This document shows positions 31,317 through 62,027 of a stretch of 64,000 nt of DNA, one piece after another. The translations under genes were made by a program, and so were the position numbers. The stretch is taken from positions 62,001-126,000 of the forward strand of contig NZ_CABVGX010000002.1 in the NCBI RefSeq assembly GCF_902497625.1. The letters are read 5' to 3'. The DNA comes from Pseudomonas fluorescens (GTDB taxonomy: Bacteria > Pseudomonadota > Gammaproteobacteria > Pseudomonadales > Pseudomonadaceae). The notes below the pieces were generated by a model. The model worked only from the letters and a program-made list of their open reading frames with translations, did no database searches and had not been told where the DNA came from. How positions within the stretch are numbered: position 1 is the first letter of the stretch; every line of letters begins with the position of its first letter.

Positions 31317-31944
31317 GGGTGTTACTCCTTTAGTTACGCCATGGCTATATCGCAAGGAAATGCCCTGTCAGGAGAAGGCTTGGGCAGGGTTGCCTGTCGC
31401 AAAGGTCAGGTGATGTCGGAGAGAGTTTGCTCAAGGGGCATTTGCGCAGGCAAAGCTACCGCATGATCCTTGTTGGGGATCGTGTCAATAACGGTTTACG
31501 GAGGTCGCTCTGGGGAAGAGCGTAAGCTGCGCAAGTGCCACGCATGTCATTGTTGACGGACAGTTTTAGTTATTGACCAGTCCTGAGAAACTGTCAAATG
31601 CCCCTTGTCAAAAAAATGCCTTTTATCCAGATCCAGCCGAGGCCGCCTCGACCAACTAATTGTTTTAACTAATAAAAATGTCTATTAATAAATTTAAACT
31701 TTTCGGCCAAATTAGAGTCTGGCGAGGGCAGAATGCAGAGATCTTCAGTTGCCTTCATCCTGGTAGGGGCCAAACGGTTTTTAATGCTTCTTCCAGATAT
31801 TCAAATCGTGCCGAACAGTCACATCGCGAAGCCAGCGTCACGAATGACCGATGGACCTCAAGCCCACGCCCCACCGGCCGATAAACATTATGTCGACGGC
31901 TCCCGGCCGCGCCTGCTGCTTTGAGTAAACCAAGGTAATCGTCC
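31317..31944. other. Long divergent intergenic region
   Basis: A 628-base region between the glycosyltransferase and the binding-protein operon. It includes an inverted repeat at 31559-31595 and a very AT-rich patch at about 31650-31710, which may be a promoter or nucleoid-protein target. No supported gene is present. Confidence 0.55.
31559..31595. repeat. Inverted repeat GACAGTTT/AAACTGTC
   Basis: Perfect 8-base arms separated by 21 bases, in the divergent intergenic region. It could be a regulator site or part of a structured leader; nothing decides between these. Confidence 0.45.
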
Positions 31945-32715
31945 ATGGCTTCACCACTTAACCGCCTCGTGATGTTCAGCGTCCTCGTGTTTCTGGCTGC
32001 CTGCGAGTTTGCGCCGCGCGCCTACGCGGAGCCGGCACTACGAATCGTCACGGAAGAGTTGCCGCCCTACAACATGACGCAAAATGGCAAGGTCACGGGC
32101 ATGAGCACCGAGGTGGTTCAGGCCGTGCTCAAAGAGATTGGCGTCGAAGCGTCGATTCAGCCGATGCCCTGGGCGCGTGCGTATGAGCTGGCACTCAATG
32201 AAAGCAATGTGTTGATTTATTCGATCGCCCGGACGCCTGCGCGTGAGCAGCTTTTTCAGTGGGTTGGGGCGATTGCGCCGACTCAGTGGTACATCTTTTC
32301 CCTGGCGGAGCGGCCGGTAAAGCTCATCTCGCTGAACGACGCTCGCGGTCATCAGATCGCCACGGTCAATCAGGATGTGGGCGAGCAATATCTGATTTCG
32401 AAAGGTTTTCGTATCGGTGAAGAACTGCAGTCGAGCACCAAGTACGAACACAATTACCGCAAGCTCAAGGTAGATCACGTTGAGCTGTGGATTTCCAACG
32501 AACTTAACGCGCTGTACCTGACCCGCCAGAATGGCGAGGACCCGGACAAGGTCCTGATCCGTTCGCTGCCGCTTCCAGAGCTCACCAGCGAAGAGGGCTT
32601 GAGTATGGCGTTCAGCCGCAATACGCCCGAGGAGACTGTTGAGAAATTTCGTTCAGGCCTGGACACCATCCGGCGCAATGGCGTTTATGACGCCATCATG
32701 CGCAAGTGGCTATGA
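31945..32715 (+). CDS. Periplasmic solute-binding protein (SBP_bac_3 type), copy 1
   Basis: A 256-residue family 3 binding protein with LRIVTEELPPYNM near the mature start and PWARAYELALNESNVLIYSIARTPAREQLFQWVG from residue 75. The export signal is ambiguous: VFLAAC20 could be a lipobox, while AYA|EP near 28 is a signal-peptidase I site. No permease or ATPase is nearby. Its 3' end overlaps or abuts the diguanylate cyclase gene, so it is more likely a sensory partner than a transport component (inference). Confidence 0.8.
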   Translation: MASPLNRLVMFSVLVFLAACEFAPRAYAEPALRIVTEELPPYNMTQNGKVTGMSTEVVQAVLKEIGVEASIQPMPWARAYELALNESNVLIYSIARTPAREQLFQWVGAIAPTQWYIFSLAERPVKLISLNDARGHQIATVNQDVGEQYLISKGFRIGEELQSSTKYEHNYRKLKVDHVELWISNELNALYLTRQNGEDPDKVLIRSLPLPELTSEEGLSMAFSRNTPEETVEKFRSGLDTIRRNGVYDAIMRKWL

Positions 32716-34072
32716 CCGGGTGGACAATTTCGAGCGTTCACCTGAAGAAACTTCATCTCAAGAAACTGAAAAAAAGAAATTCAGTTCACTGGGGCGTCGC
32801 CTGGTCATGGCGACGCTTTTATTTTGTTTGCTTTTTACGTTGGCGATGGTCTCGTTGCGTACCTGGATCGCTTGGGAAAGCAATCTTGCGGACATGAACT
32901 CCGAACTCGTCCTGATCGATCAGGTGTTCCAGAACACCTTGTCGCACGCCATCTGGGAAATGGACCGTGAGTCACTGAACAAGCAGCTCGCCAGTGTCGC
33001 CAGCGCCGCGCCGGTCGGGCGTGTGGTGCTGAACATCCCGCGGCCGGGTCAGTCGGATGAAGTCATCGAACTGAACAGATATGCCAACGCCACGTCGGAC
33101 GAGGCGCCGGTGCTGAATCGCCAGCTCGTTGCGCAGCCTTATGCAGGCGCCCACGAAGTTGTCGGTGAGCTGACAATCGAAGGCGATGCGCATTTGCTTC
33201 GAGAGCGCCTTTGGGGCGAAGCGCGCGGCATCGTGATTACGCAAGTGATCCAGTCGCTGTTGCTGGCCGGGTTGATCATGACCATGTTCAATCGACTGGT
33301 GACTGTACACGTCGTACACATCGCACGGCACCTGGGTCGACTCGCGCCGCAATCGCTTGGCAATCACCTCAGGCTGCAGCGCACGGTACGGCGTCAGGAC
33401 GAGCTCGGCCTGCTTGAATTCCAGGTCAACGAGCTGCAGGACAACCTCCACGCTCACCTGGAGCGTCAACGTACGGATGAACTGGCGATTGCCTCCAGCC
33501 GCGATCATCTGGCCGACCTGGTCGAAGCGCGCACCGCGCAGTTGAAGGCCGCCAATCAATCTCTCGAAGCGCTGTCGCGTCACGATGCGCTGACCGGGTT
33601 GGCCAACCGTCGCTATTTCGACGAACTGAAAGAAGTGGAATTCCGCCGTGCCATGCGTCACCAGACACCGTTGGCGGTGCTCATGTGCGACGTCGATTTC
33701 TTCAAGCTTTACAACGACACCTACGGCCACATGCTGGGTGACGAGTGCCTGAAACAGGTCGCTGAAACCTTGAGGGGCGTTTTCGGACGCTCCGGCGAAC
33801 TGGCTGCCCGGGTCGGTGGCGAGGAATTCGTCGTGGTCCTGCCGAACATCAATGCCGAGCAGGCCTTCAACGCTGCACAACGACTGCGTGAAAGCCTGGC
33901 TGCGCGCGAATTGCCACACAGTGGCTCGACGGTATCGCCCTTTGTGACGCTGAGCATCGGAGTCGCCGAGCTGGACCCCCAGACCATGGACCATTTCGAC
34001 CAATTGCTGCAACGCGCCGATCAAGCGCTGTACCGGGCGAAATCCCAAGGACGCAATCGCGTCGCCTTATAA
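32687..34072 (+). CDS. Membrane diguanylate cyclase between two binding proteins
   Basis: About 461 residues: two membrane segments flanking a periplasmic domain of roughly 150 residues, a HAMP-like linker, a coiled coil (EARTAQLKAANQSLEALSRHD) and a GGDEF domain with RVGGEEF. The inhibitory site position reads RSGE instead of RxxD, so product inhibition may be weak. The start is uncertain: ATG at 32687 inside the preceding gene, or GTG at 32720; neither has a clear ribosome site, which suggests coupling to the upstream gene. The flanking binding proteins may regulate it from the periplasm. Confidence 0.85.
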   Translation: MTPSCASGYDRVDNFERSPEETSSQETEKKKFSSLGRRLVMATLLFCLLFTLAMVSLRTWIAWESNLADMNSELVLIDQVFQNTLSHAIWEMDRESLNKQLASVASAAPVGRVVLNIPRPGQSDEVIELNRYANATSDEAPVLNRQLVAQPYAGAHEVVGELTIEGDAHLLRERLWGEARGIVITQVIQSLLLAGLIMTMFNRLVTVHVVHIARHLGRLAPQSLGNHLRLQRTVRRQDELGLLEFQVNELQDNLHAHLERQRTDELAIASSRDHLADLVEARTAQLKAANQSLEALSRHDALTGLANRRYFDELKEVEFRRAMRHQTPLAVLMCDVDFFKLYNDTYGHMLGDECLKQVAETLRGVFGRSGELAARVGGEEFVVVLPNINAEQAFNAAQRLRESLAARELPHSGSTVSPFVTLSIGVAELDPQTMDHFDQLLQRADQALYRAKSQGRNRVAL

Positions 34073-34095
34073 TCCAGCGTGGCCATGAGGTCTGT

Positions 34096-34839
34096 ATGCA
34101 ATTTCGAATGACGTTTTGCGCATGCCTGTTGCTGGCCGTGGTCAGCCTGCAATCCAGTGCCGAGGGGATAGACGTGGTGACCGAGGACTCGATGTACGCT
34201 TATCCCAGTGACGGCAAGGTCGGCGGGCCGGGGACGCGCATCGTTGAAGAAACCCTGCGAGGCGCTGCACTGACTGAGTATCGCCTCTCGCTATATCCGT
34301 GGGCAAGGGCCTACGAAAAGGCCTTGCACGAGCCGAACGTGCTGATTTATCCGTTAACCCGCACGGCCGTTCGTGAGGATTTGTTCAAGTGGGTGGGCGA
34401 GATCGATCAGGTTGCAATCAAGTTATACAAATTGCGCGGGCGCATCGATATCGCGCTGGACAGCCTGGAAGATGGCAAACGCTATACGGTCGGTGTGGTG
34501 CGTAACGATACCAAGCAGATTTTCCTCGAGCAGAAGGGGTTCACTCGGCTGGTTGTATCCACCGACAATCACGACAACTTTCAAAAATTGCTCAACGAGC
34601 AAGTCCAGTTGCTGCCGATGTCGGAGAACTCGGCACGGCTGGCCAGTAAGGACGCGCAGGTAGACTTCAGCTTGCTGGAGGAAATCTTTACGATCGAAGA
34701 GCAGCCCGCACGGATCTATATGGCGTTCAGTCGAGAGACTCCGGACGAAATCGTCGACAAGGCCCGGCGTTCATTCGAGCAGCTTGAAGCTTCCGGGGCA
34801 GTGGTGCGGATGATGAGTGAAGGCAGGCCTTCAAGATAA
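34096..34839 (+). CDS. Periplasmic solute-binding-like protein, copy 2
   Basis: A 247-residue protein with a signal peptide ending near SSA|EG and the same core as the first binding protein: YPWARAYEKALHEPNVLIY from about residue 67, then RTAVREDLFKWVG. It starts 23 bases after the cyclase. The ligand-pocket regions outside this block have diverged from copy 1, so the two may bind different ligands. No transporter genes accompany it. Confidence 0.8.
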   Translation: MQFRMTFCACLLLAVVSLQSSAEGIDVVTEDSMYAYPSDGKVGGPGTRIVEETLRGAALTEYRLSLYPWARAYEKALHEPNVLIYPLTRTAVREDLFKWVGEIDQVAIKLYKLRGRIDIALDSLEDGKRYTVGVVRNDTKQIFLEQKGFTRLVVSTDNHDNFQKLLNEQVQLLPMSENSARLASKDAQVDFSLLEEIFTIEEQPARIYMAFSRETPDEIVDKARRSFEQLEASGAVVRMMSEGRPSR

Positions 34840-34896
34840 AGGGCAAACGCTGCGGCTACTGTATAAAGCTGAGGCCCAACCTGAATGGAGAGCAGT

Positions 34897-36336
34897 ATGT
34901 CGCCTAGCGAGTTCGTCGAGCGGGAAAGTGCGGTCCTGGCGTTGTCCATGGTCGGGGACCTGAGCATGGGCCAGCCGTTCGATCAGTCGCGGCGCACGGC
35001 ACGCCTGGTGCAATTGCTCGCTCGCACGTGTAACGGTGATGGCGAGCACGTTGAGGTCGGGCGTCAAGTCGCGTTGTTGCGCTGGTCGGGATGCACCGCC
35101 AATGCGGAAGGTTTCACGCGCCTGCTGGGCGACGACGTTGAAGGCCGGAATGCCATGCTCAGTCACACGTTGGGCGCTGCCGGCCTGAGAGCGATGCGCA
35201 GGTCCACGCCTTTGGCGCAGGTGCATTGCGAAGTGTCCGGCGATATTGCGCGGACGTTGGGGCTCGGCGCTGGCGTCGAATCGGGCCTGCGTAACGTGTT
35301 CGAGCAGTTCGACGGTGGGGGCAGGCCATTCGGGCTGAGTCATCCTGACGTGCCTGAAGTGGTGTATCAGGTTCTGCTGGCCGGCGATCTGGAAATTCTC
35401 TCGCGGGTTCACGGAATCGACGTCGCCGTGGAATTGATCGCCAGCATGCGTGATCAGCGTTATCCCAAAGCGCTGGCAGGCGAACTCTTGCGGCATGCCG
35501 CCGATTGGCTGGAACAGTTGCGCCTGCCTGCGCAAATGCCGGCGAGCCCGCTTAAAGAACAGGGCAATGTTCCGCTGACGCTGGTCGGGGATGTGATCGA
35601 TCTCAAGTTGCCCTGGCTCGCCGGGTACTCGCGGCGTTCGGCCAGCCTGGTGCGGGCGGCGTCGCGGCTTTCGGGCTTGTCGCAAACGTCCACGGACCAG
35701 TTGGGTCAAGCGGCGCTCATCCACGGCATTGGCAAAGCGGCGGTGCCCAATCGCATCTGGAACACCCCGGCCGCGCTGCTGGAGGGCGATCTCGAGCAAA
35801 CGCGTCTCGTGCCTTACTGGACTTCACGCGCCTGTAGCCAGATTCCCGCCCTTGCCGAGTCGGGGCAATTGGCAGCGCATGCTTATGAGAGGTTGGATGG
35901 CAGCGGCTGCTTCCGTAATCTGAGCGCGAGTTCGCTGAATGCCGAGCATCGTTTGCTCGCCGTTGCACTGGCCTGGGAGGCGTTGCGCAGCCAGCGACCG
36001 TGGCGACCGGCGTTCAGTGAGGATGAGACGACGCGTCTGTTGCTCGAGGAAGTGGCGCAGGGCCGCTTCGATTCGCGCGCATGTCAGGCCGTTATTGCCG
36101 CAGCGCGCGGCGAAACGTCAGTGCCGGCGGCGAAAGCCAACGGCAGTTTGCTCAGCGAGCGCGAAACTGAAATTCTGCGTTGCATCAGTCAGGGGGGCAG
36201 CAACAAAGAGGTCGCCCGTCAGCTGCAGATCAGCCCCAGCACTGTGCGCACCCACGTGGAAAGCGTGTTCCGCAAACTGCAATGTTCGACACGGGCTGCG
36301 GCGACACTCAAGGCGCTGACCTTAGGCCTCATTTAA
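34897..36336 (+). CDS. HD-GYP-like domain fused to LuxR DNA-binding domain
   Basis: A 479-residue cytosolic protein. The first ~400 residues resemble a duplicated HD/HD-GYP fold. The metal-site motifs are eroded: HGIGKAAVPNRIW stands where HDIGK is expected, and AHAYERLDGSGCF stands where HHExxDGxGYP is expected. The C-terminal 65 residues are a LuxR-type helix-turn-helix (LSERETEILRCISQGGSNKEVA). A likely role is a transcription factor that binds, rather than hydrolyses, a cyclic nucleotide; this is inference. GGAG precedes the ATG at 34897 by 8 nt. The 3' end overlaps the convergent HxlR gene. Confidence 0.75.
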   Translation: MSPSEFVERESAVLALSMVGDLSMGQPFDQSRRTARLVQLLARTCNGDGEHVEVGRQVALLRWSGCTANAEGFTRLLGDDVEGRNAMLSHTLGAAGLRAMRRSTPLAQVHCEVSGDIARTLGLGAGVESGLRNVFEQFDGGGRPFGLSHPDVPEVVYQVLLAGDLEILSRVHGIDVAVELIASMRDQRYPKALAGELLRHAADWLEQLRLPAQMPASPLKEQGNVPLTLVGDVIDLKLPWLAGYSRRSASLVRAASRLSGLSQTSTDQLGQAALIHGIGKAAVPNRIWNTPAALLEGDLEQTRLVPYWTSRACSQIPALAESGQLAAHAYERLDGSGCFRNLSASSLNAEHRLLAVALAWEALRSQRPWRPAFSEDETTRLLLEEVAQGRFDSRACQAVIAAARGETSVPAAKANGSLLSERETEILRCISQGGSNKEVARQLQISPSTVRTHVESVFRKLQCSTRAAATLKALTLGLI

Positions 36337-61887: not shown

Positions 61888-62027
61888 CTCGGCCGTGCCG
61901 GATGTGCGCCCGGTCAAGCGAGAAAACTTCACGGACGGGCGACTTTTTGCTTCCCCTGACGTCCAAGCCTGAGACGGCCAATGTGGCTTCCCAATTCAAG
62001 ACAGCTGGCTTCAGCTAAGGACGGACG

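Follow-up and report, generated by a model that had tools for sequence, protein, structure and literature searches.

What might two periplasmic solute-binding proteins (SBPs) do when they are encoded on either side of a membrane-bound diguanylate cyclase, with no transporter among them? The question is raised by a locus of Pseudomonas fluorescens (assembly GCF_902497625.1, contig NZ_CABVGX010000002.1) situated in a stretch of 64,000 nucleotides, positions 62,001 to 126,000 of the forward strand, which is called the window here and whose numbering is used throughout (G000:C2:62001-126000 of a 5.85 Mb genome in 124 contigs). The locus is composed of the genes for SBP1 (31945..32715), the cyclase (32720..34072) and SBP2 (34096..34839), all on the + strand, and is preceded on the same strand by a FliA (sigma28)-type promoter (31858..31884). 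The operon is considered to be, with fair probability, a periplasmic chemosensor which has cyclic di-GMP (c-di-GMP) as its output and is expressed along with the late genes of the flagellum. Its elements can be read from the DNA itself: a conserved trio of genes, two SBPs predicted to be exported, a membrane cyclase with a CHASE5-related domain and an intact GGEEF motif, and the FliA-type promoter.

A preliminary description of the window had placed three open reading frames (ORFs) at 31945-32715, at a GGDEF-encoding frame ending at 34072 and at 34096-34839, and had regarded the outer products as paralogs sharing the motif PWARAYE-x-AL, the middle one as a membrane GGDEF protein and the group as free of transporter genes. 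All of these statements were borne out. SBP1 (256 aa) and SBP2 (247 aa) are 33% identical over 238 columns (E 4e-32), and the variable residue of the motif is L in SBP1 and K in SBP2. The middle protein matches PF00990 with 176.7 bits. Neither a permease nor an ATPase gene is present within the trio, and the closest PF00528 permease match on the contig, at C2:73774-75308, lies upstream and ends some 18.6 kb before SBP1. In the ORF list the cyclase begins at TTG 32639; by inspection, the GTG at 32720, 4 bases past the SBP1 stop (32715), is the preferred start. The gap between the cyclase stop and the ATG of SBP2 is 23 bases.

Conservation of the gene trio

Two sets of loci were compared. For the family set, 148 genomes of the family were searched, and the loci are those of the 20 genomes that matched the cyclase closely. 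The wider set contains the best 80 of 111 tblastn-confirmed loci from a genome scan anchored on the cyclase, and distant relatives are therefore under-sampled; its members belong to Pseudomonas, Stutzerimonas, Rhizobacter and one gammaproteobacterial assembly. The sets overlap, as 7 of the 20 family-set loci share identical cyclase DNA with a wider-set locus, and related genomes are not independent, so that p-values are not used as probabilities. The N-terminal 231 residues of the cyclase found a match in 69 of the 148 genomes, of which 20 were close (44-62% identity, own genome excluded) and 49 lay at 22-30%. Among the matches listed, close matches of SBP2 (40-49% identity, own genome excluded) came from the same 20 genomes, an agreement beyond chance. 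Some SBP2 match occurs in 106 of the 148, with at most 39% identity outside the close 20 among the matches listed.

The order SBP1, cyclase, SBP2 on one strand was found in all 20 family-set genomes and in 76 of the 80 wider-set loci. Three profile matches were obtained in 78 of the 80; the SBP1 fragments of L178 and L179 are not counted, which leads to the figure of 76. Gene calls skip or fuse one trio member in L070, L075 and L078, and four of the 76 full-order loci have split reading frames (SBP1 in L139 and L141, the cyclase in L137 and L152). The cyclase frame, taken from stop to stop, is already open ahead of the SBP1 stop in 68 of the 80 loci, and an overlap of the two genes is therefore possible in these. 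Cyclase and SBP2 remain in L172, which has lost SBP1, and in L178 and L179, where an SBP1 remnant is left (fragments of 35 and 54 bits, no SBP1 gene called), while SBP1 and cyclase without SBP2 were found in none of the 80. The loci L160, L137 (P. typographi), L172, L178 and L179 can be read as a decay series. In genus g6 (L074-L082) the stretch between the periplasmic region of the cyclase and SBP2 is about 0.5 kb longer, and the L082 cyclase bears a GAF_3 domain.

The surroundings of the trio change. Of the genes that flank it in the window, the glycosyltransferase and the ABM protein recur at none of the 80 loci, HD-LuxR, HxlR and the hydrolase at one each, and SDR and the alcohol dehydrogenase at three each, and some of these matches reach only 27-40% identity. 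Permease or ATPase genes of ATP-binding cassette (ABC) transporters lie within 3 of the 80 loci (L112, L116, L117); as a positive control, the same permease profile detected permeases at 6 of 8 SBP loci of the own genome. The ratio of nonsynonymous to synonymous substitution rates (dN/dS) was 0.05-0.18 for all three genes (15 comparisons, 5 loci by 3 genes, several with saturated dS), and by this comparative measure all of them are under purifying selection. SBP2 had the highest dN/dS of the three in 4 of 5 loci, and SBP1 evolves more slowly and is better conserved than SBP2. No plasmid match of SBP2 reached 60% identity (39 records, all below). Conservation of the triplet in other genomes had been suggested as a check of the preliminary description, which a lack of conservation would have refuted. 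The comparison did not refute it and supports the view of the trio as a conserved unit amid differing flanks.

A flagellar-type promoter

The block TCAAG-N14-GCCGATAA is the single conserved stretch in the aligned upstream DNA of seven loci. It is located 61 nt 5' of the SBP1 ATG, is kept upstream of orthologs, and its 26-base match at 31858-31883 is the sole exact one in the window. A FliA site of the same form precedes E. coli flgKL (PMC4183435). The promoter score of a locus is the best one in the 400 bases that precede SBP1, or that precede the cyclase where SBP1 is missing (4 loci). The window locus (L083) scores 13/13, and the score is at least 12/13 in 59 of the 80 loci and at least 11 in 66. 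In the shuffle control (n=1600), 6 sequences reached at least 11 and none at least 12; in the upstream regions of 458 other genes of the same loci, at least 12 was reached in 4 and at least 11 in 13. The family set has scores of at least 12 in 13 of 20 loci, six of which have an SBP1 only about 40% identical to that of the window. The promoter is also kept where SBP1 decayed (L172, L178, L179).

The own genome contains 9 exact sites, and none of the backward pattern. In addition to the one at the trio, there are sites ahead of flgK and of genes for a CheW-receiver (CheV-like) protein, a GGDEF protein, a dCache-HAMP protein, a DUF3530 protein and a Tle1-like protein; of the other two, one lies within a gene ahead of pilN and one is not followed by a gene. 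We infer that FliA controls transcription of the operon. The site before the second GGDEF gene (433 aa, L339) lies at G000:C1:131178-131203, 7 nt before the ORF. The Tle1-like gene (L343) encodes a lipase-domain protein of the type VI secretion system, and the site ahead of it may be due to chance.

The cyclase and its receptor domain

The cyclase is predicted to comprise a first transmembrane helix (TM1), a periplasmic domain, a second helix (TM2), a weak HAMP-like linker (17.8 bits, below the cut-off of 25) and the GGDEF domain. No EAL domain was matched in Pfam. The window has an intact GGEEF motif, which is present at 78 of the 80 loci; the frame is broken in L137, and L158 is without the motif. 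The RxxD site, at which diguanylate cyclases undergo product inhibition, is not kept: the window has RxxE, as do 77 of the 78 motif-bearing loci, and the other has GxxE.

A model of the N-terminal 231 residues (predicted local distance difference test, pLDDT, 76.7; mostly 82-91 for the blocks in residues 11-160) consists of two long helices, TM1 and TM2, between which lie a short helix and four strands. Its top structural match was the integrative model of WalK (Z 11.0, 209 residues, 5.4 Å), followed by CdgS9 (4u64), the periplasmic domain of a LapD ortholog (Z 10.8, 117 residues, 3.4 Å); WalK crystal structures gave Z 8.3-9.1. The model supports a PAS/Cache-like class and no finer call, because unrelated ribosomal rows in the same search reach Z 8.1.

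When the cyclase N-terminus was aligned by hhalign with CHASE5 receptors, the match (99.8%, E 1.6e-27, 25% identity) extended over 219 columns, including both TM helices. On this alignment, the receptor region is distantly related to CHASE5; it has no Pfam match to that family and is not counted as a member. CHASE5 kinases and CHASE5-PAS-GGDEF proteins are among its distant relatives within the bacterial family. In L091 the gene order is TetR, response regulator, SBP_bac_3, CHASE5 kinase and amino-acid permease, and the CHASE5-PAS-GGDEF gene of L100 is overlapped by an SBP-like one (25.1 bits, just below the cut-off). The L091 kinase is not claimed as an AruS ortholog; an SBP_bac_8 gene lies beside AruS (PMC11113362). 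At E<=0.001 the own genome gave no match to CHASE5, the CHASE5 alignment matched none of the solved structures, and no title on this domain was found among the open-license literature matches listed.

The genes next to CHASE5 receptors were surveyed with one SBP profile, other SBP families being outside the census; the profile was built including the SBPs of L091 and L100 and is biased toward the matches at L336-L338. In Gammaproteobacteria, CHASE5 occurs in 17 of 185 genomes (26 loci, L194-L219), and an SBP-like ORF is directly upstream on the same strand at 14 of the 26. In the phylum it occurs in 52 of 349 genomes, and 15 of the 29 new loci (L310-L338) have an SBP-like ORF, 13 of them upstream on the same strand. 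Roughly half of the CHASE5 loci thus have such a neighbor, which may point to a general pairing. The same profile found an SBP-like neighbor at 0 of 30 CHASE8 and 0 of 30 dCache loci, and, of the 39 GGDEF matches in the own genome, at just one of the best 30, the trio itself. Pfam scans of ten CHASE5-upstream ORFs gave weak PF00497 matches for further ones, including L209 and L213 (E 0.07-0.09), which were left uncounted, and identified one of the ten as elongation factor P. Ten receptors that were scanned carry HisKA in six cases and GGDEF in one, within the covered stretch.

The two solute-binding proteins

Both SBPs start with a hydrophobic stretch which, by inspection, resembles a signal peptide. 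SBP1 belongs to SBP_bac_3 (PF00497, 60.1 bits, cut-off 26.4), and its profile matches AncQR (4zv1, E 1.2e-18). SBP2 has no match to an SBP family in Pfam at E<=1; it is not filed under PF00497 and is termed SBP-like. In the model (pLDDT 87.2), it adopts the fold of type II binding proteins (best match VIA, Z 20.6, 215 residues, 3.1 Å). The SBP2 profile has a single PDB match, 5gzs (E 4e-4), which is annotated as a GGDEF family protein and has a periplasmic part folded like a binding protein.

In a tree of 56 rows, SBP2 forms a single clade (support 100/99), 17 of the 18 SBP1 rows form another (95/88), and both are apart from five transport SBPs. The topology indicates that SBP1 and SBP2 are old, separate lineages, and with these two clades a recent tandem duplication of SBP1 as the origin of SBP2 is unsupported. 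An SBP of the own genome (L102, 7274-8029), an orphan next to hisF-like genes, is 34% identical to SBP1 and branches with SBP2 (99/94, on a long branch of unsure placement).

The ligand site gives a further indication. Arg100 of SBP1 is invariant (17/17) and aligns with the Arg of AncQR (4zv1), which we take to be the carboxylate clamp of amino-acid SBPs; the counterpart in SBP2, Arg93, is likewise kept (17/17). At the position of the AncQR Asp, presumably the amine clamp, SBP1 has an invariant Asn185. Because the Arg is kept and the amine-clamp Asp is replaced by an invariant Asn, the ligand may be of the carboxylate type, and the residues suggest that SBP1 binds carboxylates, perhaps not ordinary alpha-amino acids.

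Comparison with known systems

Among the systems compared, NspS-MbaA offers the best reading of how the trio may work. In Vibrio cholerae, NspS is reported to contact the periplasmic domain of MbaA and to control c-di-GMP (PMC8079147). As in the trio, the SBP gene is directly upstream of the gene for a membrane c-di-GMP enzyme. NspS reportedly is a polyamine SBP, akin to PotD and SBP_bac_8, whereas SBP1 belongs to SBP_bac_3; MbaA combines GGDEF and EAL, whereas the cyclase has GGDEF only; and the trio has, besides, two SBPs, a CHASE5-related domain and a FliA-type promoter. In ScrABC of Vibrio parahaemolyticus a periplasmic binding protein likewise governs a membrane GGDEF protein. That system is said to have a GGDEF-EAL output and a signal-making enzyme encoded in the operon, whereas the trio has neither an EAL domain nor such an enzyme, and has two SBPs.

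In Salmonella, the periplasmic amino-acid SBP ArtI is required for the response of the cyclase STM1987 (PMC8846402, PMC7423604). ArtI is part of the arginine transporter and STM1987 has a dCACHE_1 domain, whereas the SBP genes of the trio are dedicated and lie beside the cyclase. Since NspS-MbaA, ArtI-STM1987 and ScrABC do so, SBPs can govern c-di-GMP enzymes. RmcA of P. aeruginosa is a c-di-GMP enzyme that senses through an SBP_bac_3 domain (PMC8846402); this domain is built into the enzyme, in contrast to the separate SBPs of the trio. The CHASE5 kinases and CHASE5-PAS-GGDEF proteins (L091, L100, L194-L216) resemble the trio in a related periplasmic domain and an SBP gene directly upstream or overlapping, but they are mostly kinases with one SBP that is far from SBP1 and SBP2, and their CHASE5 match exceeds the Pfam cut-off, unlike that of the cyclase. 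SBP-receptor signaling has been reviewed as widespread (PMC9602780, PMC11113362). No SBP-GGDEF-SBP trio was found among the open-license papers listed, judged mostly by title and abstract start, and within that scope the combination of two SBPs, a GGDEF domain only, a CHASE5-related receptor and a flagellar-type promoter appears new.

Possible mode of action and its alternatives

As a chemosensor, the operon would be transcribed by FliA once the flagellum is complete. SBP1 would capture a small, probably carboxylate-bearing solute and bind to the dimeric cyclase at its periplasmic domain, and docking would alter GGDEF activity via TM2 and the linker that resembles HAMP. Swimming cells that encounter the solute would in this way change their c-di-GMP level and decide whether to stop and attach. 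SBP2 may be a second regulator of the same receptor, which responds to a second ligand or acts as an antagonist. The preliminary description suggested two ligands or two affinity ranges; SBP2 could also be an antagonist or an accessory. The proposal in the preliminary description that ligand capture tunes c-di-GMP synthesis gains, by comparison alone, from the conserved unit, from the presence of ABC genes in 3 of 80 loci only and from the kinship of the receptor region to a domain that often has SBP genes beside it, but its choice of candidate amino acids as ligands is weakened by the invariant Asn in place of the amine-binding Asp. The flagellar-type promoter and the CHASE5 kinship are additions beyond it.

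Several observations weigh against this interpretation. L160 retains the cyclase alone, the promoter site is absent, with a score of 8-9, in L160 and L170 as well as in all 4 Rhizobacter loci, and of the 9 exact sites in the own genome only 2 are followed by plain flagellar or chemotaxis genes. P. putida bifA is partly under the control of FliA although it lacks a canonical site (PMC5300878), and FliA sites and FliA control therefore need not coincide, which is a weak point of the promoter argument. The window cyclase has no Pfam match to CHASE5 (PF17149) at E<=1. The SBP profile gave no match at 12 of 26 and 14 of 29 CHASE5 loci, and in 2 of the 15 phylum matches the SBP gene is on the opposite strand. 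Moreover, ten SBPs that accompany CHASE5 receptors group apart, in a clade which falls on the transport side of the tree midpoint; because of this separate clade the partner SBPs of the wider CHASE5 family are not SBP1 orthologs, and a common ancestral SBP-CHASE5 pairing appears less likely. The neighboring SBPs tested with the kinases AgtS and AruS, which were SBPs of SBP_bac_8, were not bound by them (PMC11113362), and gene adjacency is not proof of functional coupling.

Among the alternatives, the one that survives best, although it is unlikely, is that SBP2 alone or mainly regulates the cyclase, for example by braking it in the manner of HmsC or YfiR, and that SBP1 either is not needed or does no more than tune the response. 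The three loci that keep cyclase and SBP2 with SBP1 lost or reduced to a remnant, the converse being found in 0 of 80, speak for it, as does the match of SBP2 to the GGDEF-family protein 5gzs; however, the SBP in CHASE5 loci is usually directly upstream, which is the place of SBP1, and SBP1 changes more slowly and is more conserved than SBP2. It is somewhat less probable that both SBPs serve, as orphan subunits, amino-acid ABC transporters encoded at a distance, and that nothing but a shared operon connects them with a cyclase which senses on its own. Many SBPs partner with distant permeases, which counts for this possibility. Moreover, arginine SBPs of P. putida act on c-di-GMP through arginine pools and not by direct signaling (PMC7423604), and adjacent SBP and kinase genes need not be functionally linked (PMC11113362). 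Nevertheless, the trio is kept across changing surroundings with few ABC genes nearby, both SBPs are set apart from the five transport SBPs, and close matches of SBP2, among those listed, occur only where the cyclase does. Direct sensing of small molecules by the Cache-like domain, with SBPs that only concentrate the periplasmic ligand, is the least probable. Ligand-binding Cache domains among the fold neighbors (Z about 8) speak for it; WalK and the LapD ortholog CdgS9 match better (Z 9-11), and no direct-ligand site was identified, although neither point is decisive.

A bolder extension of the chemosensor reading can be offered tentatively. CHASE5-type domains might be general docking platforms for SBPs, and the operon a two-input version in which SBP1 and SBP2, as agonist and antagonist, compete or cooperate on one cyclase dimer; freshly flagellated cells would then read the ratio of two solutes and set c-di-GMP, in a decision that resembles chemotaxis but leads to stopping instead of turning. 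If CHASE5-type domains do dock SBPs, many uncharacterized kinases and cyclases would gain a named partner gene. The signals for most c-di-GMP enzymes are unknown, and a cassette with candidate sensors beside the enzyme gives a short list for ligand screens; placed behind a flagellar-type promoter, it also provides a clear test of how swimming cells choose to settle.

Neighboring features of the window

No tandem repeat, known RNA, defense system or sigma70 promoter was found, and terminator-like sites (7, compared with 5.5 ± 2.3 in shuffles) are not in excess. The gene just downstream of the trio (34885-36336) was ruled out as a member of the system, since it recurs at one of the 80 loci only, in the nearest relative (L104). 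It encodes a protein with an HD_5 domain and a LuxR-type helix-turn-helix, and its HD-GYP motif looks degenerate by eye.

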